A DNA stretch of 64,000 nucleotides, taken from an uncultured Flavobacteriaceae bacterium (GTDB taxonomy: Bacteria; Bacteroidota; Bacteroidia; Flavobacteriales; Flavobacteriaceae). The notes beneath the pieces were generated by a model. The model did not search any database and was not told the origin of the DNA. It saw only the letters and a program-made list of their open reading frames with translations. Of the stretch, positions 45,233 to 64,000 are shown one piece after another. The stretch's first letter is position 1; each line of letters opens with the position of its first letter. A program made the translations under genes and the position numbers. The stretch spans positions 248,001-312,000 of the forward strand of contig CANLWB010000005.1 of NCBI GenBank assembly GCA_947494695.1, read 5' to 3'.

Positions 45233-45256
45233 ATTTTTATCTAAGAATAATTAATT

Positions 45257-45808: not shown

Positions 45809-46650
45809 GCTTTCTTATCACAACAAAAGCAGTTGTTAGCCTTGTAATACCCTCTTTTGTGTAAAGATTGAATGATACGTTCTTTAAATTTTAAACTATA
45901 GACTTCAAATTTTGTGTATCCAAAATTACTAATGCTTATTGAAGAATCCATAGCTTGAACGTAATGCCACCAATTTTGAGGAACAAATAATACATCTCCA
46001 GGTTCAAGAATAACATATTGAAACGCGTTAGACATAAATTCTGGAAACTTACTCACATCGAAATTGTTAATATCAACTTCACTCGCCACAGCTCCGTAAA
46101 TATGTTTCGAACTAGGGTACATGGTTTTATTAAACTTGGTTGAGCAAATAATAAACATTTTTCTTCCTTTTATTTGCGCATATACATTGTTAGCAGTATC
46201 TGCATGAAATCCAGATATCGTATTTGCAGGTCCAATCCAGGCCGTAATATCATTTACTTTAGTATGTGCCTCGAAAAAAGAGAAGTCTATGTCACTCTTA
46301 AGCTCAGGGTAGTATTGGAAAATATCCAAAGTCGTCAAATAGTCTTTAAAACTTTCATCTTTATTTTCAGCGTCTTTTAATTCTTTTATATATTCTTTAA
46401 AAGAAGCTTTTCTGTATCTATTATCATCTTGAATGAAGTTGTCTGATAGTAAGTAAATATCCTTATCTTCTTCAAGGTCCAGAAAAAAATCCAGGCCCCA
46501 TCGTTCTGTAGCTCCCCATGCTTTAGCAAGTCCTTTTATAATAACAGGTTTCTTTTTTTTGAAATAATTTCTTTTAAAAGAAGTGGCATCTATAGAAGAT
46601 ACCTCTTCAATGGACCGACCCTGTTCCAGAATCTTGGATACAATATTCAT
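45805..46650 (-). CDS. JmjC/cupin_8-like 2-oxoglutarate-dependent oxygenase
   Basis: This 281-residue protein has the Fe(II) facial triad HxD...H: H149 and D151 in SGFHADTANN, and H229 in VPQNWWHYVQ. The opening RNYFKKKKPVIIKGLAKAWGA is typical of cupin_8/factor-inhibiting-HIF-like enzymes that hydroxylate proteins or small molecules. A Cys cluster ends the protein (NNCFCCDKK). No substrate is visible and the gene stands alone. Confidence 0.87.
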   Translation of the reverse strand: MNIVSKILEQGRSIEEVSSIDATSFKRNYFKKKKPVIIKGLAKAWGATERWGLDFFLDLEEDKDIYLLSDNFIQDDNRYRKASFKEYIKELKDAENKDESFKDYLTTLDIFQYYPELKSDIDFSFFEAHTKVNDITAWIGPANTISGFHADTANNVYAQIKGRKMFIICSTKFNKTMYPSSKHIYGAVASEVDINNFDVSKFPEFMSNAFQYVILEPGDVLFVPQNWWHYVQAMDSSISISNFGYTKFEVYSLKFKERIIQSLHKRGYYKANNCFCCDKKA

Positions 46651-48445: not shown

Positions 48446-48450
48446 TAATA

Positions 48451-49426: not shown

Positions 49427-52222
49427 TTATTCTTGATATCTGTAAAGAGGAAAGAAATCTACTTTACCTTCAAACTCTTTATTCGAAGTAGATAGTTCAT
49501 TGTAAACCTCTTGATTTGTGATATACTTCCATATTTCAAATGATTTGAAATCTTTAGAAAAGGACGACTTAAACCTAAAAAGCTCATCTTCTTCATTACC
49601 TAATCCACCACCCAGGTTAAAGTATGTGTGTTTTTTTTCAGTTCCTCTAATTCGCATTTCATCTATTAATAGACGAATGGGAGAAATTGATAAAAATTCA
49701 TTCTTGGTACCCGATATATGATATTGTATAATGTCATTGGTTTTCACCATCATAGCGGCAGAAATAATCTTATCTGTTTCTTTCTCGACAGCAAAAAGAA
49801 CATCTGTTTTAAAGTCATTACTATTAATAAATTCATTAAAGTATTCTTCCGAGAAATAGTAATTGCGTTTCGCTTTTACGCGGTCCATATTCTCATAATA
49901 TAACTTAATGAACTCTTTAATGTCTTTTTCTTCGTTACTACAAATCACTTTTAAGGTCTTTCTTCCTTTATTTAAATAGCGTTTTGTTGTTTTGGAGAAA
50001 ATAGTACGTTGCTCATCTAGTGGCAGGGTTAGGTCTATGTTCACAACATTACCTAATTTAATGATATCACCAATACCGTTTAAAATAGCAGATTGACTTT
50101 TTATAAAGGGGTTTAATCTGGAAAAGACCGATATAATCTTCTCTGCTTTGAAGTATTGATTTAGTTCATTGATAAAATTAGAATTATCAAAAGCTTCGGA
50201 AACATTCTTTTGAAGCGGTCCGGAATATCCGTAAACGGATGTAGCATCAAAGTACTCTGAATCATTAATTTTTCTAATGATTAGGGGGAGTCCTATTATA
50301 TTATCACCCTCGACATACTTTATTAACACAGCTTTTTCATCCTTTTCTTTGGATAGGTTGTGATAATCGTAGGTATGATAAAAATCATAATTTTCTACCT
50401 CGGTAAGAAGGTCCTGCCATTCTTTTTTTGAAGTAATTATATTCAAACCATTCTTTTTTTCATTGTTTGTTGTTTGCTTGTAGATTGGGAAATAGGTATC
50501 AGAATTGCTTACTAAAGTGTTAACATCTGTGTAACTCACGTTTATTTCTTTTATTAAATTGTTATATATCTTTTTGTTGATTACTTTTCTTCCCGTATAA
50601 AAAATAACGTCGTTGTCTTTTGGGAAGAATGATTTCTTGTACTGATATAATCCGTCAAAATCTTTTCTGCCTCCACCTAAGATGTAGTATTTTTTGTTGT
50701 TTTTTACGGCCCATTTCATAACTTCTATTTTCAAGAAATCGTTAGGTCTGGCATCGAAATATTCAGATAGCGTTCCTCCTAAATAAGAATATAGCGTATC
50801 TCCATCAATAATTATTAGTTCTGTCGAAATGGGAATGTTTTCCTTAAAAATAATAATGATTAAAACTTTATCTTGATTGTTCTGTATTAGGTCTTTAAAA
50901 TAATCTAAAGGATAAAAGTAGTTCTTCGCAGCCGCATTACGCTGCATGGTTTTTATATAAATTTGATAAAAAATTTCAATTACCTCTTGAGAGATGCTAC
51001 CCGTATACATCACTGATTTTAAATCATTCTTTTCGGCTCTCCTGTAGTTATTCCTCACTTTCTGTTTGAAATTGTCCCAAACAGTTTCAAAAGAACTAAC
51101 ATCTCCTTTAATATTGCTTAAACTTGGAATTAAATGTCCTGAATAATGTTTATTGTTATTATTCAAATTAAACCGTATAAACTCTGTAACTACATTATTT
51201 TTTTTATACCATTTATCTACCTTTTTCCAGAACGCTTTAATATCTTCATCTTTTACATTATTGAACAGTGGACCACTATAGCCATAGGGTGAGGATACAT
51301 CATAAAATTGAATGTTTTCTAACTTACTATGTTTTAGTTTGTTTAGATAAATTGGCATAAGAACTTTAGCCTCACCATCCTTTCTTAAAATGAAATAATT
51401 CAACTTGTTTCCTTCCGAATAATTGCAATATTGAAGAGAATAAAACGTGCTAAAGTCTTTAAATTCTTCTAATGCTCTATTGTATTTTTTAATATCACTA
51501 TCGCTAGAAATAGTATGTAATTCAAGTTTGTAATTCGATGTTTTTGTATTCTTTAGCATCCCCAAATACTGATCATCTTTTTTTCTTTCCCTAATCTCTT
51601 TAGCTGGAACTCCATATGCCATCTTATTGTCTCCTATATTTTTATTAACTAAAGATCCGGCACCTATCACTGTGTGTTTTCCAATTTTCACGCACTCAAT
51701 AATACATGAGCCTAATGATATTGCGGAACATTTATTTATAAATACCTTACCTCCAATAGTAACTCCTGGGGCTATACTACAAAAGTCTTTTACCACACCA
51801 TCGTGCCCGACAGAGCTATTCGTGTTAACAATACAATGTTTTCCAATTGTAGTATCACTATTTATTATGACTCCCGCCATAATCACTGTTCCATCTCCAA
51901 TTGAAATGTTTTCACCAATAACTGCGTTGGGGTGAATCGCGGTAATGAATTTAAAGTTTGGACTATTGGAAGTTATTTCTTTATACAGCTTCTTTCTGGT
52001 CCAATTATCACCTATGGCGATAATACCTCCATAAATATTGTTAGTTTCTATGACTTGGGCTAAGTCTTTTTCGGTACCTAAAACTTGGTATTCATTAACT
52101 TTAGCTCCTTTGGGTTTATAGGAGTCTATCAAACCAAATATATCATATTTACCTTGTCTTTTTATGATATCAATGATAACTTTGGCATGACCTGAAGAGC
52201 CTATAATTATTATCTTATTCAT
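49427..52222 (-). CDS. PglD-like sugar acetyltransferase fused to two FemAB-like GNAT domains
   Basis: This 931-residue protein has three parts. Residues 1-212 form a complete PglD/NeuD-like enzyme: nucleotide-binding GSSGHAKVIID, then a left-handed beta-helix ending GAGSLVNKNI...YGVPAKEIRE. Residues about 225-575 and 580-930 are two FemAB/GNAT-like repeats. Each has a (S)PYGYSGPL-type motif (about 310 and 665), a basic RNNYRRAEKN or KRYLNKGRKT helix, and a LGGG segment near the end. FemAB-type enzymes add amino acids or acyl groups to glycan precursors. The start overlaps the sugar transferase stop by 4 bp. I know of no common family with this architecture. Confidence 0.85.
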   Translation of the reverse strand: MNKIIIIGSSGHAKVIIDIIKRQGKYDIFGLIDSYKPKGAKVNEYQVLGTEKDLAQVIETNNIYGGIIAIGDNWTRKKLYKEITSNSPNFKFITAIHPNAVIGENISIGDGTVIMAGVIINSDTTIGKHCIVNTNSSVGHDGVVKDFCSIAPGVTIGGKVFINKCSAISLGSCIIECVKIGKHTVIGAGSLVNKNIGDNKMAYGVPAKEIRERKKDDQYLGMLKNTKTSNYKLELHTISSDSDIKKYNRALEEFKDFSTFYSLQYCNYSEGNKLNYFILRKDGEAKVLMPIYLNKLKHSKLENIQFYDVSSPYGYSGPLFNNVKDEDIKAFWKKVDKWYKKNNVVTEFIRFNLNNNNKHYSGHLIPSLSNIKGDVSSFETVWDNFKQKVRNNYRRAEKNDLKSVMYTGSISQEVIEIFYQIYIKTMQRNAAAKNYFYPLDYFKDLIQNNQDKVLIIIIFKENIPISTELIIIDGDTLYSYLGGTLSEYFDARPNDFLKIEVMKWAVKNNKKYYILGGGRKDFDGLYQYKKSFFPKDNDVIFYTGRKVINKKIYNNLIKEINVSYTDVNTLVSNSDTYFPIYKQTTNNEKKNGLNIITSKKEWQDLLTEVENYDFYHTYDYHNLSKEKDEKAVLIKYVEGDNIIGLPLIIRKINDSEYFDATSVYGYSGPLQKNVSEAFDNSNFINELNQYFKAEKIISVFSRLNPFIKSQSAILNGIGDIIKLGNVVNIDLTLPLDEQRTIFSKTTKRYLNKGRKTLKVICSNEEKDIKEFIKLYYENMDRVKAKRNYYFSEEYFNEFINSNDFKTDVLFAVEKETDKIISAAMMVKTNDIIQYHISGTKNEFLSISPIRLLIDEMRIRGTEKKHTYFNLGGGLGNEEDELFRFKSSFSKDFKSFEIWKYITNQEVYNELSTSNKEFEGKVDFFPLYRYQE

Positions 52223-52824
52223 TTTTTTGATCCTGTGAATTCTGGCATATTCATTCCTTCACTGCTATTAATACCTTCTGGTATTACTAAACGTTTTACT
52301 GTGAGCAGAATGATCTTTAAGTCTAAAAAAAGCGATAGATTATTTACATACCATACGTCTAAATCGAATTTCTTCTCCCAAGATATTGAATTTCTACCTT
52401 TAACCTGTGCCCATCCAGTGATTCCAGGTCTTACGTTATGTCGTTGCTTCTGAAAATCATTGTATAAGGGCAAATAGTGTACTAGTAATGGTCTTGGTCC
52501 AACAACACTCATATCTCCTTTTATTACATTAATTAATTGAGGGATTTCATCTAAAGAATACTTTCTAATAAAGTGACCTATTTTAGTGACTCGGTTTAAA
52601 TTATGCACGTCTTTCTCGGCATTAGGGTCCAGATCCCGCATCGTTTTAAATTTTACGATCTTAAAAAGTTTTTCGTGTTTTCCAGGGCGTTCTTGGAAAA
52701 AGAAAGGTTTCCCTTTATTAACAATTAATAAGCACCATAGGATAATAAGAAAAACAGGGAATAGAAATAAAAATGCAATTAGTGCCGTAATTAAATCGAA
52801 AAATCTTTTTAATCTTTTATACAT
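52219..52824 (-). CDS. Initiating sugar transferase (WcaJ/PglC-type), second of a pair
   Basis: This 201-residue monotopic or single-pass phosphoglycosyl transferase has an N-terminal hydrophobic helix (about residues 10-32), the KPFFFQERPG and IVKFKTMRD motifs, the catalytic Asp-Glu in YSLDEIPQ, and the PGITGWAQV end. It moves a sugar-1-phosphate onto undecaprenyl phosphate. I start at the ATG at 52824, aligned with its paralog and 1 bp after the upstream stop. An ATG at 52854 would overlap that gene. It overlaps the fusion protein gene by 4 bp. Confidence 0.92.
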   Translation of the reverse strand: MYKRLKRFFDLITALIAFLFLFPVFLIILWCLLIVNKGKPFFFQERPGKHEKLFKIVKFKTMRDLDPNAEKDVHNLNRVTKIGHFIRKYSLDEIPQLINVIKGDMSVVGPRPLLVHYLPLYNDFQKQRHNVRPGITGWAQVKGRNSISWEKKFDLDVWYVNNLSLFLDLKIILLTVKRLVIPEGINSSEGMNMPEFTGSKK

Positions 52825-52825
52825 A

Positions 52826-53440
52826 TTAACGTTTTGTTGTTTTTCTATATTCATCTAAATCAATGATACCTTCGCTTAAATTTGTGTCGCTTCCATTGAC
52901 CACTTTTAAAACCGTTTTAAAGAAAATTTTTGCGTCTAAATAAAAGCTCATTTTTTGCACATACTCCACATCAAACGCTAATTTATCATCCCAGTTCAGG
53001 GTGTTTCTTCCAGATACTTGAGCTAAACCAGTCACTCCGGGTTTAACAGAATGTCTTATTTTTTCTGTTTCAGTATAATAGGGCAAATACTGAACTCTTA
53101 AAGGTCTTGGCCCAATCAAACTCATATGTCCAACTAAAATATTTATTAATTGCGGAATTTCGTCCAAAGAATATTTTCTTATAAAGTTACCAAATAAAGT
53201 GACTCTTTGGTCATCTGGAAGCAATTCATTATTTGCATTTTTTTTATCAGACATGGACTTAAATTTAATGATCTTAAAGATCTTTTCATTTTTGCCAGGA
53301 CGACTTTGAAAAAAGAATGGTTTTCCTCTGTTCGTAAATAATAGAACAAAACTTATAATAAAAAAAAGCGGGGATAATATGAGTAAACCTATAGTGGCTA
53401 AACACACATCAATTATTCTTTTAAACAACTTTTTGTACAT
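52826..53440 (-). CDS. Initiating sugar transferase (WcaJ/PglC-type), first of a pair
   Basis: This 204-residue paralog of the following gene shares the same layout: hydrophobic helix (about 9-33), KPFFFQSRPG, IIKFKSMSD, YSLDEIPQ and PGVTGLAQV. The two together could start two different glycans, or act at different steps or on different sugars. A TACTTTTG minus-7 element (complement 53457-53464) lies 16 bp upstream, making this the first gene of the sugar-transferase/fusion operon. Confidence 0.92.
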   Translation of the reverse strand: MYKKLFKRIIDVCLATIGLLILSPLFFIISFVLLFTNRGKPFFFQSRPGKNEKIFKIIKFKSMSDKKNANNELLPDDQRVTLFGNFIRKYSLDEIPQLINILVGHMSLIGPRPLRVQYLPYYTETEKIRHSVKPGVTGLAQVSGRNTLNWDDKLAFDVEYVQKMSFYLDAKIFFKTVLKVVNGSDTNLSEGIIDLDEYRKTTKR

Positions 53441-53456
53441 GCTATTTGGTTGGCCT

Positions 53457-53464
53457 CAAAAGTA
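53457..53464 (-). promoter_or_regulatory. Minus-7 element of the sugar-transferase operon
   Basis: It reads TACTTTTG on the minus strand, 16 bp before the first sugar transferase gene. Confidence 0.48.
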
Positions 53465-53560
53465 GAGTATAATTATACACCTTTAAAGAAAATACGTTTA
53501 TGTTACTATTTAATCGATAATTTGTTTTTCTAAACCTGTATTCGGAAATAGAATGAAAAC

Positions 53561-54649
53561 TCACCCAACAAGACTGTCCTCATATTTATTGATAACACCA
53601 GCCATAAATAAAACATCATCTTTGGTATACCTGTAATCTAAATGAATATTGAGGAAGTACCCATACTTAGATTCGTTGTCCGGCCATAATAGTGATGGGT
53701 AAATGGTCTTAGAAATCAAATAGCTTTTAAAGTGATTTAACTTATCGATACTTTTAAAATGCAAGGTTAAACCAAAAGGTGAAGATTTACGTCCAACAAT
53801 GTTAAAGTTATTGTTATCTTTTATCGAGTTTACCATTTCATTAAAATTGTTCTTTTTAAAACTTAAATAATTATTATTTAAGTATTGTTGTAACAATTTT
53901 TCATGTGTTTCATGTATTTCAACTAACTCATAATGATCATGCATCATGTTTTCGGCTTCATAGACGAGTTGTAAAAAGTCATCTTTTAAATTTTCATTAG
54001 GTAAAATAGCGTCTTCAAATTCCTTTTTTTTCTTCATTCCTAAAAGAATTTTATTCCAAATCCCATTAAAAAGGGGAGAAGGCTCAAGGTTTAGATTTGG
54101 TAATTTTTCACCATTAGGAATCCAGGTTATTCCTCCAAGAGGTGCGGGCACCGATTTTCTTAAGGAAGCAAAACAATAATCTGCCTTACTTTCTACGCAA
54201 GCTTTACTTAACCAACCATGAGAATGATCTTCTACTATAAAAACCTTCTTTTCCCCAGATTGTACTTTACAGTCTGAAATTCCCCAAAAATTATTTATTA
54301 AAACAATATCATTTTCATTAGCGAAACGGTCAGGTGTTATGTTGTCCGATTCATCAGCAGGGTTTACTGTGTAAGTTTTGATATTACTGTAATTCATTTT
54401 TAACCAAGATGTTACATGTTGGCAGTAATACTCTGGAATCCAAAACGTATTTACCTTATTATTTGCTTTAATTGTTTCAATGATATATTTTATGGCATGC
54501 CTTCCAGAATAAAAAAGTTTTTTATTAATTGGATTGAAACTACTCTCTGAATTATTAAAAGTTTCTGAGTTATAGTTTATATGAGAGAAAAAAGATCCAT
54601 AGCCCTTTTTCTTTGCTAATTGACTGTGCATGATATTTAATTTGTTCAA
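53561..54649 (-). CDS. PLP-dependent aminotransferase-fold protein, divergent (DegT-like)
   Basis: This 362-residue protein is probably a fold-type I relative of sugar aminotransferases. YSGRHAIKYIIETIK (about residues 47-61) matches the PLP-phosphate region, VEDHSHGW holds D141/H142 where the pyridine-binding Asp is expected, and SLRKSVPAPLGG holds K165 at the Schiff-base position. The overall sequence is far from typical DegT proteins, and the C-terminal domain has an unusual Asn-rich stretch. It may aminate a nucleotide sugar or have another role. The gene is divergent from the formyltransferase. Confidence 0.68.
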   Translation of the reverse strand: MNKLNIMHSQLAKKKGYGSFFSHINYNSETFNNSESSFNPINKKLFYSGRHAIKYIIETIKANNKVNTFWIPEYYCQHVTSWLKMNYSNIKTYTVNPADESDNITPDRFANENDIVLINNFWGISDCKVQSGEKKVFIVEDHSHGWLSKACVESKADYCFASLRKSVPAPLGGITWIPNGEKLPNLNLEPSPLFNGIWNKILLGMKKKKEFEDAILPNENLKDDFLQLVYEAENMMHDHYELVEIHETHEKLLQQYLNNNYLSFKKNNFNEMVNSIKDNNNFNIVGRKSSPFGLTLHFKSIDKLNHFKSYLISKTIYPSLLWPDNESKYGYFLNIHLDYRYTKDDVLFMAGVINKYEDSLVG

Positions 54650-54674
54650 AAATCAATATAAATGAATAGCTTTG
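54641..54674 (+). promoter_or_regulatory. Promoter of the formyltransferase gene
   Basis: TTTG at 54641-54644 and TAGCTTTG at 54667-54674 lie 22 bp apart, 30 bp before the ATG. Confidence 0.52.
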
Positions 54675-54704
54675 CAAATATTAATGTTTAAAATTTGGGT
54701 TTGA

Positions 54705-55556
54705 ATGGCTTACAATAAGAAAATTGTTTTTTTAGGATCCAGGATTCATGTTATAAAAGAATTGCTGAAGGATGTACAAAGAGAAGACCTTATTATTTAT
54801 GCGCTTGAGAATAGTTATTTAGTTAATTTTTTAAATAAGGAAAACATAGAATATTTTACGTTTTCTATGCGTGATAAAAAAGCTTGTTTAGACGAATTGT
54901 TACAATTAGATTTTGATGTTTTAATCTCTAATGGTTGTCCAATTGTTTTTCCAGTACAAAAGTTTTCACCGCATCAAATATTGATTAATATACATCCCAC
55001 ATATTTACCTTATTTACAGGGGAAAACTCCAATGAATGGTGTGTTTTATTTAAATTATAGTTTTTACGGAGCTACAATGCATTATATTGATAAAGGAATA
55101 GATACCGGAGATTTAATTTATCAAAAAAAGGAGGGGCTAACAGAAGATATAGACTTAGGCCTTTTATATCACTTAGCTATGAAATTAGAAGGCTGGGTGT
55201 TTAAAAAGGGATGGGAAAAATTAAAACAGGCTAATTTTAAATATATAGGAACTAAACAGAGTGCAAAGTCGACTTATTTTAATAGAACCGATGCTATGCA
55301 AACTCTGGACTTCGAAGAGAAGACAGAAAATTTGTTAGTAAAAATTAAGAGCTTTGGAATAAAAAGTCAAGGGTGCTCAGTCTGCATTGAAAACAAAAAT
55401 TATAAAATTTTTGAAGCAGAACGAATTGTACATGAACCATTACTCGAAAACTATAAAAACTCCAGCCCTGGAGATATCATTTTGTTTTACGACGAAAAGT
55501 TTCTGGTAAAAACAGTTGATGGTATAATAAAAGTTAAAAAATATGAAATAGTTTAA
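54705..55556 (+). CDS. Formyltransferase family protein (Fmt/GART-fold)
   Basis: This 283-residue protein has the 10-formyltetrahydrofolate transferase core. The catalytic triad is N95, H97 and D133 in LINIHPTYLPYLQGKTPMNG and KGIDTGDLI. A C-terminal beta-domain (about 200-283) resembles the OB-like domain of Fmt. Related enzymes in surface-glycan clusters formylate amino sugars such as Qui4N. It is the only rightward gene inside the leftward cluster, divergent from the PLP-fold gene and convergent with the ACP gene (5-bp gap). The sugar substrate is inferred from context. Confidence 0.87.
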   Translation: MAYNKKIVFLGSRIHVIKELLKDVQREDLIIYALENSYLVNFLNKENIEYFTFSMRDKKACLDELLQLDFDVLISNGCPIVFPVQKFSPHQILINIHPTYLPYLQGKTPMNGVFYLNYSFYGATMHYIDKGIDTGDLIYQKKEGLTEDIDLGLLYHLAMKLEGWVFKKGWEKLKQANFKYIGTKQSAKSTYFNRTDAMQTLDFEEKTENLLVKIKSFGIKSQGCSVCIENKNYKIFEAERIVHEPLLENYKNSSPGDIILFYDEKFLVKTVDGIIKVKKYEIV

Positions 55557-55561
55557 AAGAG

Positions 55562-55810
55562 TTAATCGCTGAGTAACTCTTTTTGAATGGTTGTAATTAA
55601 GTCCCCTACATTATTCATATTCATTAAATCCATTAACTTAAATTTGATGTTGAAATTGTTTTCAATGTCTGTTATAATCATCATATGAGTTACAGATTCC
55701 CAGCCATCAACATCGTTCGCTGTAGTCTCTGGATTAAGCTCAAAATTACTATGTTCCAGGATTTTTATAAATGATTCTTTTGCTTTATCTAAAATCGCCT
55801 CTTTTGTCAT
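55562..55810 (-). CDS. Acyl/peptidyl carrier protein
   Basis: This 82-residue carrier has a four-helix fold with the phosphopantetheine serine S39 in DVDGWESVTHM, a WES variant of the usual DSL seen in Dlt-like and polysaccharide-associated carriers. It is acidic. The start overlaps the adenylation enzyme's stop by 4 bp, so both are made together. It should carry an acyl or aminoacyl thioester delivered by the adenylation enzyme to a transferase in this cluster. Confidence 0.92.
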   Translation of the reverse strand: MTKEAILDKAKESFIKILEHSNFELNPETTANDVDGWESVTHMMIITDIENNFNIKFKLMDLMNMNNVGDLITTIQKELLSD

Positions 55811-57321
55811 GTTTGTTTTTTTCTAATTAATTTTCTTAAATGTTCTCTATCTAATTTTCCATTGACATTGTGAGGTAACAGACTTAAAAAATGAGTTTGT
55901 GTTGGTATCATGTAGTTGGGTAATTTGGTTTGTAAATAATTAAAAAGTGGGGTTGTATCAAAGGGTTTTCCTTCAATAATTAATGCAATTTCGTTATTCC
56001 CTGTGCTGTTATTGATATCTAGCACAGTGAGATTGTTTTTAGTTATTATATATTTTATATGATGTTCTATTTCTCCTAGTTCTACTCTAAATCCGCGTAT
56101 CTTCACCTGGAAGTCCTTTCGCTCAACATACATAAGGTTTCCATCTGTATCTCTAAAACAAACATCTCCTGTCTTGTAGAAGCGTTTTACCTCTCCATCG
56201 TCTAGTTTCATGTTAAAAAAACTAGTATCATTTAGTTTTTCATTATTCCAATAGCCTTTTGTTAGTTGTTTACCTGCAAGGCATAATTCTCCTATTTTAT
56301 TGTTGTCCAAAAGGTCGTTGTTATCATTAACAATAACAGCATCAATCCCGTTTAGAGGTTTTCCAATTGACAAAACACCATTATAGGACTTATTCCCATG
56401 TTTTTTAAACGTATAGTAAGAACTACATACCGTACATTCTGTAGGGCCATAATGATTATAAATCGTACTATTGGGTATGCACGCCGACCATTCTTTCAAG
56501 ACGTCTTCAAATAACTTTCCTCCTCCAAAAACACAATACCTTACATTGGGTTGATTGATTTCGGGAAAATATGGTCTTAAATAGTAAATAATGGACGGTA
56601 CCATCTTAAGTACAGTTAGATCATAGGTTTGCATAAGTTTGTAGATATGAAAATACTTCATACTATCTGGAGGAACGGTATAGCTACAAGCTCCAGCCAA
56701 AAATGCAGGCATGAATGCTGTTAATGAGGCATCAAAAGTTAAATCGTACATTTGCAGACACCGGTCTGTATTGTTGATTGTATATGCTTCATCGTTCTCA
56801 AATGTTAATAGCAATGCGTTTAGGTTTTCGAAGCTAATGGGAATACCTTTTGGTTTTCCAGTACTTCCGCTTGTAAACAAAATATAAGCGATATCTGTTT
56901 TATTATATTCTGTAACACTCAAGGTGTGATGTTCTAATTTTTTATAATGTGTTAACACATTATAAACCTTAAAACCACTAGAGTAGGGGGATTCTTTTGC
57001 CGAATCGAATACCGATTTACTACCTGTTAAATCTAGAACTTCAGTATTTCTTTTTATTGGTGCTGTTGGATTAATTGGAATATATGCTTTGCTTTCCAGC
57101 CAAAGTGCAAAAATAGTAGCGTAAGTTTCTAGATCGTCATTAGCTACCAGTCCAATTAGCTTTTCTTCCGAATGAATTTGACTTTGAATGATTTTTCGTA
57201 TCCGAAGCACACAATTAGACAGGTCTGTATAAGTAAAAAAGGTATTATTTATACATATGGCATTTTTTGCCGAATTTTTTAAAAAAGAATTTTGAAGCTT
57301 GTCTAAAAAGTTCATAATCAT
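55807..57321 (-). CDS. Stand-alone amino-acid adenylation enzyme (DltA/NRPS A-domain type)
   Basis: This 504-residue protein has a full ANL fold: A3 LFTSGSTGKPKG (about residues 148-159), A5 NHYGPTECTV, A7 YKTGD, and A10 NGKLDR with catalytic K489. The length equals that of DltA-type ligases, with no fused carrier or condensation domain. It activates an amino or carboxylic acid as an adenylate and loads the adjacent ACP. Substrate specificity cannot be read reliably by eye. An ATG two codons downstream is an alternative start. The upstream gene is 3 bp away. Confidence 0.92.
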   Translation of the reverse strand: MIMNFLDKLQNSFLKNSAKNAICINNTFFTYTDLSNCVLRIRKIIQSQIHSEEKLIGLVANDDLETYATIFALWLESKAYIPINPTAPIKRNTEVLDLTGSKSVFDSAKESPYSSGFKVYNVLTHYKKLEHHTLSVTEYNKTDIAYILFTSGSTGKPKGIPISFENLNALLLTFENDEAYTINNTDRCLQMYDLTFDASLTAFMPAFLAGACSYTVPPDSMKYFHIYKLMQTYDLTVLKMVPSIIYYLRPYFPEINQPNVRYCVFGGGKLFEDVLKEWSACIPNSTIYNHYGPTECTVCSSYYTFKKHGNKSYNGVLSIGKPLNGIDAVIVNDNNDLLDNNKIGELCLAGKQLTKGYWNNEKLNDTSFFNMKLDDGEVKRFYKTGDVCFRDTDGNLMYVERKDFQVKIRGFRVELGEIEHHIKYIITKNNLTVLDINNSTGNNEIALIIEGKPFDTTPLFNYLQTKLPNYMIPTQTHFLSLLPHNVNGKLDREHLRKLIRKKQT

Positions 57322-57324
57322 GTT

Positions 57325-58413
57325 TTAAGCAAAATTTCCATCTTGTTGATGAACATCTTTGTTTTCGAAATTTAAGGCAACGTCATGGTGAGCCAAAGAA
57401 TAAATTTTCCTTTTATTAGAATAAATATTCAAAAACTTGCTGGCGATTTTCTTTCCCAGTATTTCGTCTTCTACAATAAGTATGGAGCATTTAGATTTAA
57501 TGAAGTTATCAACTAGTGCATCCATGCAAGTATTGTGGTTTTCTTCATCTGAAAGAAAGTAGCGTAATACAAATTCGTTTCTTCTTACTAATGCTGAGAT
57601 AAAACCTATCTTTTTAGTCGTTTTGGAAATCAAGAAATTCAAGTTATATATATTGCTCGAAATACTACTTATCAAGCAGTTTTGAGAAAATTTATGTTCA
57701 TCTTTTGCAATAACATATTGATTATTATCTATTTGCCAGTTTATATAAGTTTTCGTTTTTTTAATTAAATCGGAGTCACAATGTTTTTTAATGAAATTCC
57801 AGGCATTAGAGTCTATTTGTGAAAGGTATTCGTACGATATATCTTTAGAATTGATTCTTCTTTTGTTAATCACAGAAATAAAAGCATGTGAAATTTTTGT
57901 GAAAACTTTTAATAGTGGAAGAGCAATTCTAAGTGGTTTTACCTTGCTTACAATAAAATTATGATTCAGGTCGAATAGCATAATATAGCGCTCTCTACTT
58001 GAAAATCTGGTAAACGGTTGTTTCTTATAGTATTCTTCCGTTTCGTTAACCAAATATTTAATAATCATCTGATTTTGCACAGACTCTAATGATACTTTTC
58101 TCAAATAAGTGGAAAGTATGGAGGTTTTATAGTCATCTGAAACCCACCAACGGCTACTCCAGTAAATTTTATGAATACCTTCTTTAGTGTTAATCCAATC
58201 CGGAATTAAATATATAAATGCCACTAAAGTGTTATGTTCTAAACCTAAAACAGCACAAACATCGTCATCTTCAATTCGTTCGTTCCTCAGGAGCCATAAG
58301 GCTTTACTTTTACTAAAAGGAACAAACTTCGAGTCATTTTTCCAATACAGGTTTTGCTCTAAAGCATTTTTGAGGGCACTGCGGGTTAGTGATATGACTT
58401 GAAGATCTTTCAT
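57325..58413 (-). CDS. Uncharacterised protein in the adenylation-ACP operon, possibly GNAT-like
   Basis: This 362-residue soluble protein has two halves. The first (about residues 1-165) contains a strand-helix order that may be a GNAT core (DDVCAVLGLEHNTLVAFIYLIPDW, KIYWSSRWWVSDDYKTSILSTYLRKV). The second (about 200-350) repeats a weaker, similar pattern (GFISALVRRNEFVLRYFLSDEENHNTCMDALVDNF). No catalytic motif is certain. It lies between the CapK-like ligase and the adenylation enzyme with gaps of 14 and 3 bp. It may move the activated acyl group from the ACP to a sugar amine, but that is inference. Confidence 0.6.
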   Translation of the reverse strand: MKDLQVISLTRSALKNALEQNLYWKNDSKFVPFSKSKALWLLRNERIEDDDVCAVLGLEHNTLVAFIYLIPDWINTKEGIHKIYWSSRWWVSDDYKTSILSTYLRKVSLESVQNQMIIKYLVNETEEYYKKQPFTRFSSRERYIMLFDLNHNFIVSKVKPLRIALPLLKVFTKISHAFISVINKRRINSKDISYEYLSQIDSNAWNFIKKHCDSDLIKKTKTYINWQIDNNQYVIAKDEHKFSQNCLISSISSNIYNLNFLISKTTKKIGFISALVRRNEFVLRYFLSDEENHNTCMDALVDNFIKSKCSILIVEDEILGKKIASKFLNIYSNKRKIYSLAHHDVALNFENKDVHQQDGNFA

Positions 58414-58427
58414 TAATTCATAATAAT

Positions 58428-59732
58428 TTAAACAAAGTTATTTATGGTAGCTTTTCTTTTTCCAGAGGATAACAAGGGAATTTCTTTAACATAGGTTACG
58501 TCGATATTAGCATCGTCACCCAGATACCCTTTAAATTCTTTAATAATCTCTTGTTCCTGATTAAATTCAGAGGTCGCATTTAACTTTAACTCATATTCTT
58601 TTTTGGACTTTTGAATTAATTGACCTTGCTTAATACCTTTATATTCAACAACATTTGTTACTATAAAAGATGAAATTATTTCTCCTTTGGTATTATATAT
58701 AATATCTGCTTTTCTTCCCTCAATATGCTTCAAAACTGGAGGCGTTATTGAATAATCAATAACACCTACATCTCCTGTGTCGTAACGTATTAAAGGGATG
58801 GCGTAGTTGTATAAATCTGTGACAATAATTCTGCCTGGTTCCCCAGAATCTGCTGGAACATCTTCATTTAATCTAAATATTTCAACATAGTAACTTGCCC
58901 AATTTATGGTAAAACTATTGGTATCGAGTTTTTGCTGTGCCACAATACCATTTTCCATATTTGAATATCTGGATACCAGAGGAACGCCAAAATACTTTTT
59001 CATGGATTCTTTGGTGTACTTGTTGACACCTTCAGACATAGCTATTATTGATTTTACACCTATTTTTAAAGGCTCAGAATGTTTTCTGTCCAAATATTTA
59101 CATATAAGTTCATAACCAGAAGGATAGCCTAACCAGGCCTTATTGGAGGCGTCATTACTAATTTGCATCAATATTTTAGAGATGTAGTCGTCATTCATAT
59201 TAACAACTTCAAGCTCTTTAATGTTATGTGCAAAGTTTCTAACGTTTGATTTTCTTAAATGATCGTCCCAATGTCTTAAATACAGCAGCTTGTAACCTAT
59301 TTTAAATCCAGCTAATTTCGAGAAATATATCGTGTCAGCAGTGTTTCTTAAAGTCTTGTTCTTATCTTGTATTAATTCTAGTGCAATACTAGTAGAGCCA
59401 CTTGTGGTTACGGTTTTAAGTTTTTGACCTGTAAAAGGTTGGGATTCAAAATCCTTTTTACGTGTTCTTATTATGTTTTTGTTGATTATAGGAAACTCAT
59501 CAAATGTCTTATAGTTTTTATAAAATTCTGTTGTAGAAATAGCATGGTTTAATACATTTCTCTTTTTGTTTGCTTGTAATTTTATGGCTTCAGAACTAGA
59601 ATAATTTTCAAGAATGAATGTGATATCATTGACATGTTTTTTTATTTTGAATCCACGCAATGCATCAATTGACCAAAAAAATAGATGTCTGAGATTTTCA
59701 AGTATGGTTAGGGGTGTTTTCATAAATTTCAT
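58428..59732 (-). CDS. CapK/phenylacetate-CoA ligase-like adenylate-forming enzyme (copy 2)
   Basis: This 434-residue paralog of the enzyme at 12064-13374 shares SRYSNMENGIVAQQ, WASYYVEIFRLNED, IPLIRYDTGDVG and LLSSGKRKA. The P-loop-like motif is TTSGSTSIALEL (about 109-120), lacking the second glycine present in copy 1 (GSTGTP). That may alter phosphate handling. It sits between a GT4 gene and the adenylation-ACP genes, so it probably activates another carboxylate for the same glycan. Confidence 0.87.
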   Translation of the reverse strand: MKFMKTPLTILENLRHLFFWSIDALRGFKIKKHVNDITFILENYSSSEAIKLQANKKRNVLNHAISTTEFYKNYKTFDEFPIINKNIIRTRKKDFESQPFTGQKLKTVTTSGSTSIALELIQDKNKTLRNTADTIYFSKLAGFKIGYKLLYLRHWDDHLRKSNVRNFAHNIKELEVVNMNDDYISKILMQISNDASNKAWLGYPSGYELICKYLDRKHSEPLKIGVKSIIAMSEGVNKYTKESMKKYFGVPLVSRYSNMENGIVAQQKLDTNSFTINWASYYVEIFRLNEDVPADSGEPGRIIVTDLYNYAIPLIRYDTGDVGVIDYSITPPVLKHIEGRKADIIYNTKGEIISSFIVTNVVEYKGIKQGQLIQKSKKEYELKLNATSEFNQEQEIIKEFKGYLGDDANIDVTYVKEIPLLSSGKRKATINNFV

Positions 59733-59760
59733 TGTAATGTTTTGATAGAGAAAACGAAAC

Positions 59761-60912
59761 TTACTTTAGTTGATTGTACTCTTCCAAAAGAGCATCCCAA
59801 ATAACTTGTCGCTGATACCTGTTGACTATTAGTTCTCTACATTTTTTAGAATCAAAATGTATTTCCTTCCTATAGATCTTCAACATTTTATTATAGAGGG
59901 TTTCCGAGTCTTTAACTGGGATTATTGTGCCGTTTTCATTTTCAATTATAATCTCGTTACAACCGTTAATATCCGATACAATACATGGAAGCCCCATTGA
60001 TCCGGCTTGCATGACGACATTAGGAAATCCTTCTCTATAACTTGGGAACGTTAAAATATTTGAAATTCTAAAATAGGGACATACATCATCTACCCAACCT
60101 GTAGACACGATATTTTTATTCGTATCAATAATTTTCATGGTTTCGGGTAAGAGCGGATCAAGCTCATTTTCGTAGTCTCCAACTAATAACAGCTTTATTT
60201 TATTATATTCACCGTTAAGCTTATTAAACGCTTTAACCAATTCATTAACACCCTTGTCTGACACTAACCTCCCAACGAAAACAAAGACATAGTCATCGTC
60301 CTGAATATGGAGTCCTTTTTTTATTTCTGAAAGCTTTCCTTCATCATCAAATCTGGCTGGATTAAACCTTTCTACGTCAATACCATTAGAACTTCCATTA
60401 GCAATAACCTTCAGTTTCTCTTTTTTTGTAAACTTATGATCGAGTATAATATCTTGTAAACCAAGTGAATTTGGGTATATTTTTGTTGCGCATGAATATG
60501 TTGCTTTCTCTACGGTATTTAAAACAAAACGCTTAAAACCAGTTGCTTCAACAAGTGGTAATCCTGCAATGGTATGTAGTCTGTTAGGTACACCTGCTAA
60601 TTTAGCAGCTAACATAGATAAGGTTCCTGCTTTTGGAGTATGTGAGTGCACGATAAAAGGCTTCTCTCTTTTGAATAGCTTATAAAGTTTATAAACTGCC
60701 TGAATATCTTTTAGTGGTGTAATTTTTCTTGTCATTTCGACAGCGTGAGTTGGAACGCCTTCAAATTTATTCACTCTGTCAAGCTCATTGTTTTTTCCTT
60801 GTGACGAAACACCCAGAATATCATAATAATTCGACATAAACTTTAACTGTCCATGAAGTAAACCACATAGCGATAATGGAACCGTAGTAATTCTAATTAT
60901 TTTTTCTTTCAT
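59761..60912 (-). CDS. Glycosyltransferase family 4
   Basis: This 383-residue GT-B enzyme has an N-terminal acceptor domain with HSHTPKAGTLSMLAAKLAGVPNR and a C-terminal donor domain with FVFVGRLVSDKGVNEL (about residues 209-224) and FPSYREGFPNVVMQAG, whose glutamates bind the nucleotide sugar. It resembles capsule GTs such as those adding N-acetylgalactosamine or fucosamine, but the donor is uncertain. It is the first gene of the GT4-CapK-unknown-adenylation-ACP operon. A TATATTTG element is 34 bp upstream. Confidence 0.93.
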   Translation of the reverse strand: MKEKIIRITTVPLSLCGLLHGQLKFMSNYYDILGVSSQGKNNELDRVNKFEGVPTHAVEMTRKITPLKDIQAVYKLYKLFKREKPFIVHSHTPKAGTLSMLAAKLAGVPNRLHTIAGLPLVEATGFKRFVLNTVEKATYSCATKIYPNSLGLQDIILDHKFTKKEKLKVIANGSSNGIDVERFNPARFDDEGKLSEIKKGLHIQDDDYVFVFVGRLVSDKGVNELVKAFNKLNGEYNKIKLLLVGDYENELDPLLPETMKIIDTNKNIVSTGWVDDVCPYFRISNILTFPSYREGFPNVVMQAGSMGLPCIVSDINGCNEIIIENENGTIIPVKDSETLYNKMLKIYRKEIHFDSKKCRELIVNRYQRQVIWDALLEEYNQLK

Positions 60913-60946
60913 TCAATGTAATTATCTGGTGTTAAAACAATGTTCG

Positions 60947-60954
60947 CAAATATA
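60947..60954 (-). promoter_or_regulatory. Minus-7 element of the GT4-CapK-adenylation-ACP operon
   Basis: It reads TATATTTG on the minus strand, 34 bp before the GT4 start. It lies in the 155-bp gap after the GNAT array, so the operon can be transcribed separately. Confidence 0.5.
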
Positions 60955-61067
60955 TAAAAGTAATTTATTAGCAATTCATTTACTCTTTCTACTACTGGGT
61001 TTTGCGGTGAAATGTAATTTTTGAATCAAACGTTAATTAAATGTTAATTAAAAAGTTTTATTTCTCT

Positions 61068-62201
61068 TTAATTCAAACCTATTGTTTGACTGTTATTCTT
61101 TCCTTTAATAAGGTATTCTCTGTTGTTAATTTTATATGTTTTGATATTACTAATATGATCTATGGTTGTATATAAAAAGTCAAAAACACTTCGTTTTAAA
61201 AAACCATGAAGATCATCGTTGTAATCAACTTCTGTTGCATTACAAATTTTCTTGATCAGATTATCATTAATAGTTACAATTTTTGAAGGAACTAGGGTAG
61301 TATTTATGCCTTTGTTTTGTTTTTTTGTGCGTTTTAGTGCTTTTTCGGGCTTTTTAGATTTTAAATACTCCTTCGCCCTGTATTTGAAAACGTTATAAAT
61401 ACCCGCTAGAATACCACGATTGGAATAGGCAATGTAATGATAGTACCTATAAATATTATTGCTCCATCTTCTCTTATAATCCATGCCTCCAACCCCCATT
61501 TCAAATAAGATATAATCATTTTTAGTACACCATTCTACCTGTTTATAAATTTCAATATGGCCAAGTCCGAATTTTGAATAATCCACATTATAGGATGATA
61601 CATAGCTAAAAAGCACTTTGTCGTAATGGTAGTTTAGCGAAACCTCAATAGGTTCTTTATCATTATAAATAACAAATAATGAAGCTGTTTTGTTGATTAT
61701 TCTATCGTACGTACTGTCTATTAAATAATCCCATTCCCTTATATTTTTATGAACCTCATTTAGCTCCCTGAATCGATCAAGAATCATGTTCTTGAGGGAT
61801 TCCATAATAAAAGCATATTCTTTTTTAGTAATACGACCATGGTAGAGTTTATATTGGACATTCAAACAAGCCTCCAGACGATTTACATACCTTCTAATGA
61901 TATTTCTTTTTTTTCCATTAAACTGCTTAAGCATAAAGTCTTCTATCGTATTCACGGAATTTAAAAGAATTGAATATCCCCAGTTGTGCTGTGGAATTTT
62001 TTTTATTGTATACTTTGAATTCCTTGTATTTAGCTTAAAATATTCCGGGATAAGTTTAAATGAATAATAAGGGTTGTAATGAACGTCTAAATCTTCATTA
62101 ACCACAGTGTTTTCATGGTACTCAAAAGATTCAAAAAGTTTTTTAACCTTCGGTTCCAGAAAAAGCTTCGGAAATACCGTAATGTTTTTTGTCGTCCCCA
62201 T
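61068..62201 (-). CDS. CelD/BioF2-like GNAT acyltransferase (array member 3)
   Basis: This protein of about 377 residues has the Acetyltransf_6-type core: basic helix GKRKNIIRRYVNRLEACL, core strand SLFVIYNDKEPIEVSLNYHYDKVLFSYVSSYNVDYSKFGLGH (about residues 180-220), and FEMGVGGMDYKRRWS. It lacks a membrane segment. I start at the ATG at 62201. The ATG at 62216 would overlap the previous gene. It is the last of three similar genes. FemAB/CelD-like enzymes add acyl or aminoacyl groups to glycans or lipids. The substrate is unknown. Confidence 0.82.
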   Translation of the reverse strand: MGTTKNITVFPKLFLEPKVKKLFESFEYHENTVVNEDLDVHYNPYYSFKLIPEYFKLNTRNSKYTIKKIPQHNWGYSILLNSVNTIEDFMLKQFNGKKRNIIRRYVNRLEACLNVQYKLYHGRITKKEYAFIMESLKNMILDRFRELNEVHKNIREWDYLIDSTYDRIINKTASLFVIYNDKEPIEVSLNYHYDKVLFSYVSSYNVDYSKFGLGHIEIYKQVEWCTKNDYILFEMGVGGMDYKRRWSNNIYRYYHYIAYSNRGILAGIYNVFKYRAKEYLKSKKPEKALKRTKKQNKGINTTLVPSKIVTINDNLIKKICNATEVDYNDDLHGFLKRSVFDFLYTTIDHISNIKTYKINNREYLIKGKNNSQTIGLN

Positions 62202-62205
62202 TATA

Positions 62206-63417
62206 TTATGTAACATACGTAATTAACTCTATTTTAGTTCTTTTCGTTTTGCTAATTATATATAATTCTTTTGCATTTGTGCTTTTCTGGTAAAATGCTA
62301 CGTTATGAATTGACTCTTTGTTATTAAAAAGAAAATAATTGATTGACTTAATTAAGTTTTTATCAATACTACTAACAGATACAGATTCTAAGTCACTTGA
62401 ATCGGGTAGTTTTGAAACCGCAGTTTCAATAACTTCATATTTATCTATAGTATTCGCTTTTCCAACATTTGCGATGTTGTACTTAAGTTTAGCATATTTG
62501 CTGTAAATTTTTTGAGCATTTACTAGTTTAAGAGCTTTAATAAAGGAAAATTTAACTCTGGTTATCAAATACTTATAGTAAGCAAGTAAAGTTATACTTA
62601 AACCTTGTGATCTATATACAATGTGTTTCTTGTACATGTAACTATCTGTAATGTATTTTCTTTTATGCAGAAAATCGCCTCTACCCATATCGAACACTTT
62701 AATTCCTTCATTAAAACACCATTCAAGATGATTAATCATGTTTACATGTCCTAGGTTAAACATTTGATAATCTATGTCATAACAGCTGTTCCAATGTAAT
62801 AATAGACCGTTATCAACAAAGTTTAGGGTTATATTTATTGGCTTCTCTTTATGGTAAATCACAAAGATGCTGGCTTTTTTTTGAAGAATTAGGGGGTACA
62901 TGATGTCTTGATAGAGATCTAAATAAGGTAATTCGAAATTGTCTTCTTTTTTCTCCTCGAATCTTTTAATTGTGAGTATTTTTAAATAATCAAAAATACG
63001 GTCATACTCGCTTTTGGAAAGCTCTCCGTAATATATTTTATACTCGGGAGCAATGCATAAATCAAGTCGTTTTCTGTAGCGCTTTAGTTGTGATTTTCGT
63101 CCTCTTCCCAGTTTGGAGCTCAAGTAATGGTTTAAGTCCTGATATTGGCTTAGATTAATATAGAACCCCTCGTATAACGATGTTTTAAGTGTTTTTACCC
63201 AGGTGAATTTTTCTGGAATCTTTAGGGTTAAATAATCTGGAATATCAAAGATGGCGTATATCGTTCTGGACACTCCTGTTTCGTGTTCCGTGTCATTATT
63301 ATAAAGGGTATCCTTTGAAACATTATTTATTATTTTTGAATAAAATTCAGGGAGCGCCTTATCCTTTAAAAAAAGGTCTAAAAAGAAACTCTTTTTTATG
63401 TACTCAATTCCCCTCAT
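62206..63417 (-). CDS. CelD/BioF2-like GNAT acyltransferase (array member 2)
   Basis: This 403-residue paralog of its neighbours has GRGRKSQLKRYRKRLDLCI (basic helix), SIFVIYHKEKPINITLNF, CYDIDYQMFNLGHVNM and FDMGRGDFLHKRKY. The C-terminal 100 residues are a less conserved extension (NANTIDKYEVIETAV region) that also occurs, diverged, in the other two. The stop lies 4 bp before the ATG at 62201 of the next gene, and the start overlaps the preceding stop by 4 bp, so the array is one operon. Confidence 0.82.
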   Translation of the reverse strand: MRGIEYIKKSFFLDLFLKDKALPEFYSKIINNVSKDTLYNNDTEHETGVSRTIYAIFDIPDYLTLKIPEKFTWVKTLKTSLYEGFYINLSQYQDLNHYLSSKLGRGRKSQLKRYRKRLDLCIAPEYKIYYGELSKSEYDRIFDYLKILTIKRFEEKKEDNFELPYLDLYQDIMYPLILQKKASIFVIYHKEKPINITLNFVDNGLLLHWNSCYDIDYQMFNLGHVNMINHLEWCFNEGIKVFDMGRGDFLHKRKYITDSYMYKKHIVYRSQGLSITLLAYYKYLITRVKFSFIKALKLVNAQKIYSKYAKLKYNIANVGKANTIDKYEVIETAVSKLPDSSDLESVSVSSIDKNLIKSINYFLFNNKESIHNVAFYQKSTNAKELYIISKTKRTKIELITYVT

Positions 63418-64000
63418 TGTTTTTTTACTATTAATAATTGATTTTTACGTTTTCCTCGTATTTCATAATGATTGGGAGAATCATGTCTCCTGTAAACACC
63501 TACATCATCGAGTTTTTCTTTGTTGATGAACAAAAAATTATACACGTGCTTTTTTAGACCTTTAAAGGTCTTGCTACTGTGGAAATCAATTTTTTGGGCA
63601 TATTCTTCAATGGCTATATCGTTTTTTATCAATACTTCGACCCTAGTAGCTTCATTTGAATAGTTTGATGTGAGTCTGTAAACGATTTTTTTGAAGTTGC
63701 TATAAGTTTTGTGTAGGTTATAGGATTTCATTTTTTTCACCACACTTCGTTTGAGTTTTTCTTTTAAACCTATAACAAATGCCTTAAACACATAGTACGG
63801 ATTTTTAGAATTATGTACAATCTGAATTGTATTAAAATATGAGGTTGTTGCCCATTTTTTTTTGTAATAATCATACCCTTTTAAGAGATCGTAAATGTTA
63901 TAATGATTATTGAAACACCATTCAATATTTTTAAGCATATCTATAGACCCTAAATGAAACTTTCCGTAGTCTATATCGTATCCACTAATAATATAGTATG
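63414..64000 (-). CDS. CelD/BioF2-like GNAT acyltransferase (array member 1, partial at window edge)
   Basis: Only the last 195 residues are inside the window. The frame stays open to the edge and encodes SGYDIDYGKFHLGSIDMLKNIEWCFNN-type sequence that aligns with members 2 and 3. An internal methionine at 63938 is therefore not the start. The remainder contains LLKGYDYYKKKW, the equivalent of MGRGDFLHKRKY, and the same C-terminal extension (TRVEVLIKNDIAIEEYAQKI region). It overlaps member 2 by 4 bp. More genes of the cluster presumably lie to the right. Confidence 0.78.
   Translation of the reverse strand, partial: YYIISGYDIDYGKFHLGSIDMLKNIEWCFNNHYNIYDLLKGYDYYKKKWATTSYFNTIQIVHNSKNPYYVFKAFVIGLKEKLKRSVVKKMKSYNLHKTYSNFKKIVYRLTSNYSNEATRVEVLIKNDIAIEEYAQKIDFHSSKTFKGLKKHVYNFLFINKEKLDDVGVYRRHDSPNHYEIRGKRKNQLLIVKKQ

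Follow-up and report, generated by a model that had tools for sequence, protein, structure and literature searches.

In the Dlt system (DltA-DltC-DltB-DltD), which performs the D-alanylation of teichoic acids, a stand-alone adenylation enzyme loads a carrier protein for the decoration of a surface polymer. Passages of a published study describe a related arrangement for AlmE-AlmF-AlmG of Vibrio cholerae, where an adenylation enzyme, a carrier and one transferase decorate a surface molecule by adding glycine to lipid A (PMC12930378). In Flavobacterium psychrophilum, according to passages of another study, an O-antigen-specific carrier is predicted to pass an acyl group to UDP-Qui2NAc4NH2 (UDP, uridine diphosphate) via a PglD homologue (PMC6519341). 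The present analysis concerns a stretch of 64,000 nucleotides from an uncultured Flavobacteriaceae bacterium, hereafter the window (C5:248001-312000 of the 5.49-Mb genome), and a three-gene unit, or triad, in its surface-glycan cluster. This unit is conserved in marine flavobacteria and resembles the systems of other bacteria, seemingly with a different transfer enzyme. All three genes lie on the minus strand: GNATx (57325-58413), a tandem-GNAT protein proposed as a carrier-dependent aminoacyl transferase from its AlphaFold model, Foldseek matches and invariant residues; a stand-alone amino-acid adenylation enzyme (55807-57321) with the pocket DATKVGHVCK, matched by PF00501 (188 bits) and, below the cut-off of 317, by TIGR01733 (297 bits); and an acyl/peptidyl carrier protein (55562-55810; PF00550, 21.7 bits against a cut-off of 20.8).

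Conservation of the triad

The three genes are adjacent in the order GNATx, adenylation gene and carrier, the carrier overlapping the adenylation gene by 4 bp, and alignment showed that the GWxS serine motif of the carrier is conserved (DVDGWES in the window). Among 299 genomes of the family, GNATx was matched at E 1e-8 in 16, one of which (G072) has a weak second copy. The same 299 genomes were searched with the adenylation enzyme at E 1e-80, five candidates being scored per genome; this cut-off was set in order to shut out nonribosomal peptide synthetase (NRPS)-like domains, the best of which reached 2.4e-55 in the window's own genome. Twenty close matches were obtained, and they fall in the same 16 genomes as GNATx. 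Fifteen adjoin GNATx in glycan loci, four (in G019, G070, G240 and G215) belong to Dlt-like sets that also lie in glycan loci, and the one in G224 is found beside a polysaccharide deacetylase. An adenylation-carrier pair occurring mostly away from glycan genes, which the original prediction for this DNA had named as evidence against itself, is therefore not the pattern found. The window's own genome also gave four phosphopantetheinyl transferase matches over the cut-off.

A wider scan compared the GNATx alignment with one genome per species in 84,980 species, by a procedure that requires short peptide pattern matches and may thus miss remote relatives. It yielded 73 GNATx loci, assigned to Flavobacteriaceae genera (Aquimarina, Algibacter, Flavivirga, Hyunsoonleella, Flaviramulus, Wocania and others) or to the family, two of them coming from bins named only as Flavobacteriales or Bacteroidia. 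A draw of 395 genomes across the phylum gave five GNATx matches, two in Flavobacteriaceae and three, all weak, in a sister family. The adenylation gene adjoins GNATx, in the same orientation, at 72 of the 73 loci, with gaps of -36 to 191 bp, and the carrier follows it in 71 (59 by BLAST and 12 more by re-reading for the motif), the misses being due to contig ends. Distance matrices of GNATx and the adenylation enzyme, built for the window and 70 loci (71 rows; L061, L067 and L116 left out), correlate with r = 0.865, against at most 0.30 in 500 permutations, a value that is also expected of adjacent co-inherited genes.

Two family genomes depart from the one-to-one arrangement. In G218 (L035), where 20 kb were read, there are two GNATx-adenylation pairs, one for each main pocket code, with one carrier. 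In G215, GNATx and a carrier stand without an adjacent adenylation gene, and the sole close adenylation gene is found about 6 kb away with a second carrier, in a Dlt-like set; we infer that a single adenylation enzyme probably serves both. Separately, an adenylation enzyme (DAHKLGVINK), a PF13673 GNAT, from a different family than GNATx, and a carrier stand consecutively in G224 (L147:1522-3959), adjoined by the polysaccharide deacetylase and a DUF7033 protein; this set is possibly an independent case of the same design.

The adenylation pocket and the predicted amino acid

The pocket code of the window enzyme was read by alignment, with the position numbering that we take to apply to such pockets. 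The pocket Asp and Lys, the residues that contact an alpha-amino acid at its amino and its carboxyl group, are kept in all adenylation rows that reach that far. In passages of published work, DLTKVGHVGK is the code for Asp, Asn or hydroxy-Asp (PMC12283262, PMC10391617), and DATKIGEVGK appears as a published code for Asn/Asp; the window pocket is identical to the former at 8/10 positions and to the latter at 7/10. By analogy with such NRPS codes, the window enzyme is predicted to activate aspartate or a close relative.

The codes differ among the relatives. Across 74 rows, DFVTSGYVYK was found 50 times, DATKIGHVCK 8, DFVSSGYIYK 5, DATKVGHVCK 3, DMVICAYIYK 3, DFVVCGSVTK 2, and DFAACGGVYK and DMVTSAYIYK once each, one row being cut. 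The culturable relative Flavivirga aquimarina (L051) shares the code of the window enzyme and, as far as its locus was read, the order of the genes. Since these varied codes occur among conserved triads, the module is retained across relatives whose predicted amino acids are not the same. The Jejuia locus L054 and the Hyunsoonleella pacifica locus L121 have GNATx proteins that are 70% identical, yet the L054 adenylation gene falls in the DFVT group, its pocket part being 90% identical to that group and 60% to L121.

GNATx as a tandem-GNAT protein

GNATx has no Pfam (E 0.01) or NCBIfam match, and a sequence search against solved structures returned nothing useful, so that its fold is known from the model alone. 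The AlphaFold model (predicted local distance difference test, pLDDT, 88.1; predicted template modelling score, pTM, 0.86) contains two successive GNAT topologies, which agrees with the original prediction of a possible GNAT at this position, though no Pfam family covers it. Among the 50 Foldseek matches listed, the best PDB entries are mainly N-myristoyltransferases, together with tandem GNATs such as Eis2, with query-normalised template modelling (TM) scores of 0.38-0.56 and 8-14% identity. Judged by the model, GNATx and the N-myristoyltransferases are of a common fold class and form separate sequence families; membership in the N-myristoyltransferase family itself was rejected, the likeness being one of fold only and no Pfam match being obtained at E 0.01.

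The alignment of GNATx relatives shows invariant residues, and the C-terminal D-G-x-(F/Y/M)-x makes up the last five residues in 73 of the 74 GNATx proteins of the 73 loci, the exception ending in DANYA. N-myristoyltransferases use their C-terminal carboxylate in catalysis. Because of this parallel, the conserved end of GNATx may also be catalytic, which we offer as a guess.

Glycan setting of the loci

Neighbours within about 10 kb of GNATx were named by their best BLAST match to proteins of the window cluster, some loci being cut by contig ends. Bac_transf phosphoglycosyl transferases were found in 69 of the 73 loci, FemAB-like proteins in 70, GT4 glycosyltransferases in 65, SGNH-like proteins in 58, and NeuD, CelD-like and MBOAT proteins in 57 each, followed by CapK-like (44), formyltransferase (22) and PLP-like (4; PLP, pyridoxal phosphate) proteins. 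Of the 5 Bac_transf genes in the 5.49 Mb of the window's own genome, 3 fall in the glycan cluster; therefore, by our own arithmetic, the chance of meeting one in a 21-kb stretch is about 1.5%. A same-strand Bac_transf gene lies directly upstream of GNATx in 41/73 loci, and the gene directly downstream of the triad is Bac_transf in 32/71 and NeuD in 27/71 (together 59/71), the gene after the adenylation gene being taken where BLAST had missed the carrier.

Glycan genes are nearby in 71/73 loci, the exceptions being L061, which is cut by a contig end, and L110. The original prediction had joined the CapK-like, FemAB-like, CelD-like and formyltransferase proteins in one pathway with the adenylation enzyme. 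This single pathway was set aside as unproven because the presence of CapK, CelD and formyltransferase genes differs from locus to locus, and a common aminoacyl transfer step, or use of the carrier, is not attributable to the four classes on these data. At L110, a Mariniflexile locus, the triad (L110:9995-12613 plus the carrier) lies between ribB-like and DegT-like genes with an integrase-like gene near, all named by eye, and a transfer of the triad as a unit is possible.

Proposed mechanism and alternative explanations

The gene set, its order, its conservation and the pocket residues are direct observations. On balance, we consider it probable that the triad is an aminoacylation module of an apparently Wzx/Wzy-type exopolysaccharide cluster, by which aspartate or a relative is activated, loaded on the carrier and amide-linked by GNATx to an amino sugar before export. 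The adenylation enzyme would form the AMP-ester of the amino acid, which the pocket predicts to be aspartate or a close relative in the window's own genome, and the amino acid would then pass as a thioester to the phosphopantetheine arm of the carrier. In the cytoplasm, GNATx would move it onto an amino group of a sugar. The likeliest acceptor is a 4-amino-4,6-dideoxy sugar, UDP- or lipid-linked, which the dehydratase and LegC-like aminotransferase of the cluster itself would produce. A neighbouring Bac_transf enzyme would place the sugar on undecaprenyl phosphate, and the repeat would then be flipped, polymerised and exported. This acceptor is favoured because the cluster has a dehydratase and an aminotransferase of the right families (PseB-like, 195 bits against a cut-off of 408, and LegC-like, 374 bits against 420, both below), formyl- and acetyltransferases for alternative N-acylation, and a precedent in known Asp-glycan chemistry: in passages of a review, amino acids are described on the amino sugars of many bacterial glycans, and known glycans bear Asp or N-acetyl-Asp on the 4-amino sugars Fuc4N or Qui4N (PMC10609480). 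The idea in the original prediction that an amino acid is activated, carrier-loaded and used in a glycan pathway thus gains support from the conserved triad, the glycan genes at 71/73 loci and the amino-acid-type pocket.

A broader proposal is made more tentatively, and we lean slightly away from it: GNATx may found a new class, namely tandem GNATs that are myristoyltransferase-like, depend on an aminoacyl-carrier and place amino acids on the precursors of sugars. The amino acid would be exchangeable in evolution, the adenylation gene or only its pocket being swapped for another type (the aspartate-type is one of several) and the transferase, the carrier and the cluster being kept. If true, such a class would supply a route, missing so far, to glycans that chemistry has shown to bear amino acids, and the exchangeable amino acid would make a plug-in system for diversifying surface glycans. 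Among best-ranked literature matches, judged by title or abstract, no paper was found that assigns an adenylation enzyme, a carrier and a transferase to the step placing an amino acid on an amino sugar. The module makes the question directly testable, since it supplies defined genes, an amino acid prediction and pocket variants that occur in nature. It would also connect teichoic-acid-type carrier chemistry to the assembly of polysaccharides in Gram-negative marine bacteria.

Several points weigh against the aminoacylation module as proposed. GNATx is present in 73/73 loci by construction, since it was the probe, and its match in G224 is weak (42 bits) and on another contig than the adenylation gene. 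No adenylation-carrier pair accompanies the weak sister-family matches in two looked at, of three, and none lies near the weak GNATx-like proteins found close to sugar genes at L044 and L045. At L110, the triad has no glycan genes within 10 kb, which speaks against a strict glycan link. The amino acid is predicted by analogy with NRPS codes, the window pocket has Ala and Cys where DLTKVGHVGK has Leu and Gly, and the exact code DATKVGHVCK was found in no paper in a literature search of six code strings. The mismatch between GNATx and the code group in L054 suggests that GNATx may not select the amino acid. As modelled, the tandem-GNAT fold suits acetyl-coenzyme A (CoA) as well as an aminoacyl carrier. 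Finally, the enzyme activity, the acceptor, the linkage and the order of the GNATx transfer relative to the Bac_transf step are inferred, and amino-sugar genes were sought in the window's own cluster only.

In the main rival, GNATx would N-acetylate the amino acid while it is bound to the carrier, giving for instance N-acetyl-aspartyl-carrier, and the acyl group would then be moved to the UDP-amino sugar by a left-handed beta-helix enzyme of the NeuD/PglD type. NeuD occurs in 57/73 loci and directly downstream of the module in 27/71, passages of PMC6519341 offer a precedent in WfpG of F. psychrophilum, itself a prediction, and passages of PMC10609480 report several known glycans with N-acetylated amino acids on Qui4N. 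We nevertheless regard this explanation as unlikely, given that 16/73 loci keep GNATx without NeuD within 10 kb, some of these being contig-cut so that NeuD could be farther away. Less probable still is a Dlt-like route, by which the aminoacyl-carrier would feed the MBOAT-SGNH pairs of the cluster for O-aminoacylation of the polymer outside the cytoplasm, with GNATx as an accessory. The frequency of MBOAT (57/73) and SGNH (58/73) genes and the separate adenylation-carrier-MBOAT-SGNH sets of G019, G070, G240 and G215, whose pockets have the Cys of DltA, are in keeping with it; however, the MBOAT of those sets follows its own carrier while GNATx retains another, 16/73 loci (some contig-cut) have no MBOAT within 10 kb, and non-Dlt MBOAT-SGNH pairs are said, in passages of PMC12148441, to use acyl-CoA.

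The module might also make a free small molecule, such as an N-acyl amino acid or a signal, and merely travel with glycan genes. The solitary triad of L110 and the presence, in the window's own genome, of further NRPS-like adenylation domains in long frames would suit such a product, which we hold to be quite improbable in view of the glycan genes near 71/73 loci and of immediate flanks that are mostly sugar-transfer genes. The aminoacylation module is thus retained as the preferred reading.

Gene content of the window cluster

The original prediction had treated the 15-kb stretch 49427-64000 as a cluster, which is real; reading the contig beyond the window revealed that it is one end of a glycan cluster of about 50 kb. 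With the window numbering continued along the contig above 64000, and with genes past the window that gave no profile result being named by eye from their translations, the cluster extends about 33-37 kb past the window: it stops at 96827, or at 101095 once two glycan genes on the far side of two housekeeping genes are included. Its other side is closed by an MBOAT-SGNH pair (46994-49401, plus strand) that belongs to the cluster: an MBOAT O-acyltransferase with the C-terminus FIYFQF (46994-48445; PF03062; TIGR04091, 138 bits, below its cut-off) and an SGNH-like partner (48451-49401), which has no Pfam or NCBIfam match and which we take to be of this class from its position and GDSF motif.

Profile matches bore out most of the genes originally named, namely the adenylation enzyme, the acyl carrier protein, two Bac_transf enzymes, the GT4, the formyltransferase and the CelD-like GNATs. 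On the minus strand, a 931-aa protein (49427-52222) contains the two FemAB/GNAT-like domains recognised before (PF13480 in two stretches) and, ahead of both, an N-terminal NeuD/PglD-like sugar acetyltransferase domain that had been missed (TIGR03570, 208 bits, cut-off 161). It is followed by two short Bac_transf phosphoglycosyl transferases (52219-52854 and 52826-53440; PF02397, 210 and 204 bits) and by a conserved protein (53561-54649), also on the minus strand. The PLP-type fold suspected for the latter was not confirmed: no Pfam, NCBIfam or PDB sequence match was found, a profile search of PDB was empty, and the model (pLDDT 61) was too poor for a fold search. A sugar N-formyltransferase-like protein (54705-55556; PF00551, PF02911) lies on the plus strand. 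Beyond the triad, on the minus strand, come a CapK/PaaK-like adenylate-forming enzyme (58428-59732), a variable neighbour whose gene exists as predicted and whose assignment leans on weak NCBIfam matches (best 59 bits, none over cut-off), and a GT4 glycosyltransferase (59761-60912; PF00534, PF13692).

At least three CelD-like GNATs had been foreseen, and the array has six, from 61068 to 67769, three of them past the window. The first two (61068-62216 and 62206-63417, minus strand) match PF13480; the third (63414-64000, minus strand) runs past the window end and, being cut there, scores 21.6 bits, below the cut-off of 22. The six copies (61068-64000, continued in L009 to 3769) are 24-32% identical among themselves, while best-hit relatives of copies 2 to 5 show median identities of 46-52% (4 to 12 relatives each) and the order is kept in several genera; judging from these sequences, they probably have old, distinct functions.

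The array is followed by SGNH-like and MBOAT genes, then by a beta-helix protein, an asparagine-synthase-like amidotransferase, a polysaccharide deacetylase, a second formyltransferase and an EpsG-type polymerase. Glycosyltransferases, a TupA-like ATP-grasp protein, a pyruvyl transferase, a flippase, UDP-sugar dehydrogenases and Wza/Wzc-like genes are also present. Of the Wzx/Wzy-type features, the EpsG-family polymerase was identified by Pfam, and the flippase, Wzc- and Wza-like genes by eye, not by profile. The beta-helix-like protein (by eye; 70673-72598, L009:6673-8598) is on the opposite strand and has a relative in 42/73 loci.

Outside the cluster, a Cupin_8/JmjC-like protein (45805-46650) adjoins it, for which hydroxylation of an amino acid, for example Asp, is conceivable. 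Further left (40092-45736) are a 489-aa protein, a beta-lactamase-fold protein, an M14 peptidase and an Lrp-type regulator. These genes seem to neighbour the triad in the loci of Algibacter as well (L061 by eye; L058 and L062-L066 by gene lengths), which would indicate one chromosomal site with differing glycan genes.

Dlt-like and MBOAT-SGNH sets in relatives

In 4/16 genomes (G019, G070, G240 and G215), a second set with the Dlt gene order, adenylation-carrier-MBOAT-SGNH-like, occurs in the same glycan region. These sets (L145:9296-13423, L144:5742-9876, L146:10059-14166 and L043:13576-17715) lie in Gram-negative glycan clusters, and their pockets are DLVLLCVIYK or DLMLLCVIFK, the Cys being shared with DltA and PDB 4oxi in alignments. 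The C-terminus FIYFQF was found in 64/64 MBOATs of the 73 loci (only those longer than 440 aa were counted, the shorter, mostly cut, being dropped) and in five checked in Dlt-like or FkbH sets, and it fits the FXYXXF acyl-shuttle motif. Passages of the literature tie the fused motif to MBOAT-SGNH pairs without a carrier (PMC12148441), so that carrier-linked MBOATs bearing it would be unusual. A further arrangement, L145:13610-17943, places an FkbH-domain protein, a carrier, an MBOAT and an SGNH-like gene consecutively and has the look of glyceryl-carrier chemistry that leads to an outlet of this same type.

Comparison with known systems

Two wider classes of loci were considered and rejected. 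An NRPS or NRPS remnant is contradicted by the lack of a condensation domain among 13 proteins of the stretch (Pfam) and by the conservation of the triad on its own. XrtA/PEP-CTERM loci are similar in that XrtA-associated acyl ligase, FemAB, amidotransferase and decarboxylase models match below cut-off, the decarboxylase in the relative L034 and not in the window; no exosortase exceeds the Pfam cut-off in the genome, the best, on another contig, reaching 24 bits against 25.7. The PEP-CTERM study by Haft mentions no ligase, carrier, decarboxylase, FemAB or amidotransferase (PMC1569441).

In literature searches (best-ranked matches, titles and abstracts, with subscription papers mostly outside), no GNAT-adenylation-carrier triad in glycan clusters was found. 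Within these matches, the original statement that no such system is described therefore holds for the exact gene set, but not for its logic, which follows Dlt and AlmEFG. Among NCBIfam models, those of DltA score near the top with the window adenylation enzyme (224-234 bits), and yet the DltA equivalog TIGR01734 is not reached (224 bits against 559.85), nor is the DltB equivalog TIGR04091 by the two cluster MBOATs (138 and 137 bits against 375); instead of an adenylation-carrier-MBOAT-SGNH set, the window triad has the tandem GNAT GNATx. Compared with the wfp R-group pathway of F. psychrophilum, as predicted in passages of PMC6519341, the likeness is a cluster-specific carrier that brings an acyl group to a UDP-4-amino sugar, whereas a fatty-acid-type pathway and a PglD homologue operate there and an adenylation enzyme and a tandem GNAT are found here.

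With AlmEFG, the triad has in common an adenylation enzyme adjacent to a separate carrier. The closest solved pocket region to the window enzyme, which is not its best whole-length match, is that of PDB 4oxi, which we take to be AlmE. The triad differs in its pocket, in its GNAT-fold transferase and in its setting, a polysaccharide cluster and not lipid A. AlmG presumably belongs to the LABLAT family, while the transferase adjacent to the carrier system here is a tandem GNAT by its model, no genome search for AlmG having been made. Since the DltA and DltB cut-offs are missed and the transferase differs, the triad is a member of neither system, and it shares the logic of both with another transferase.

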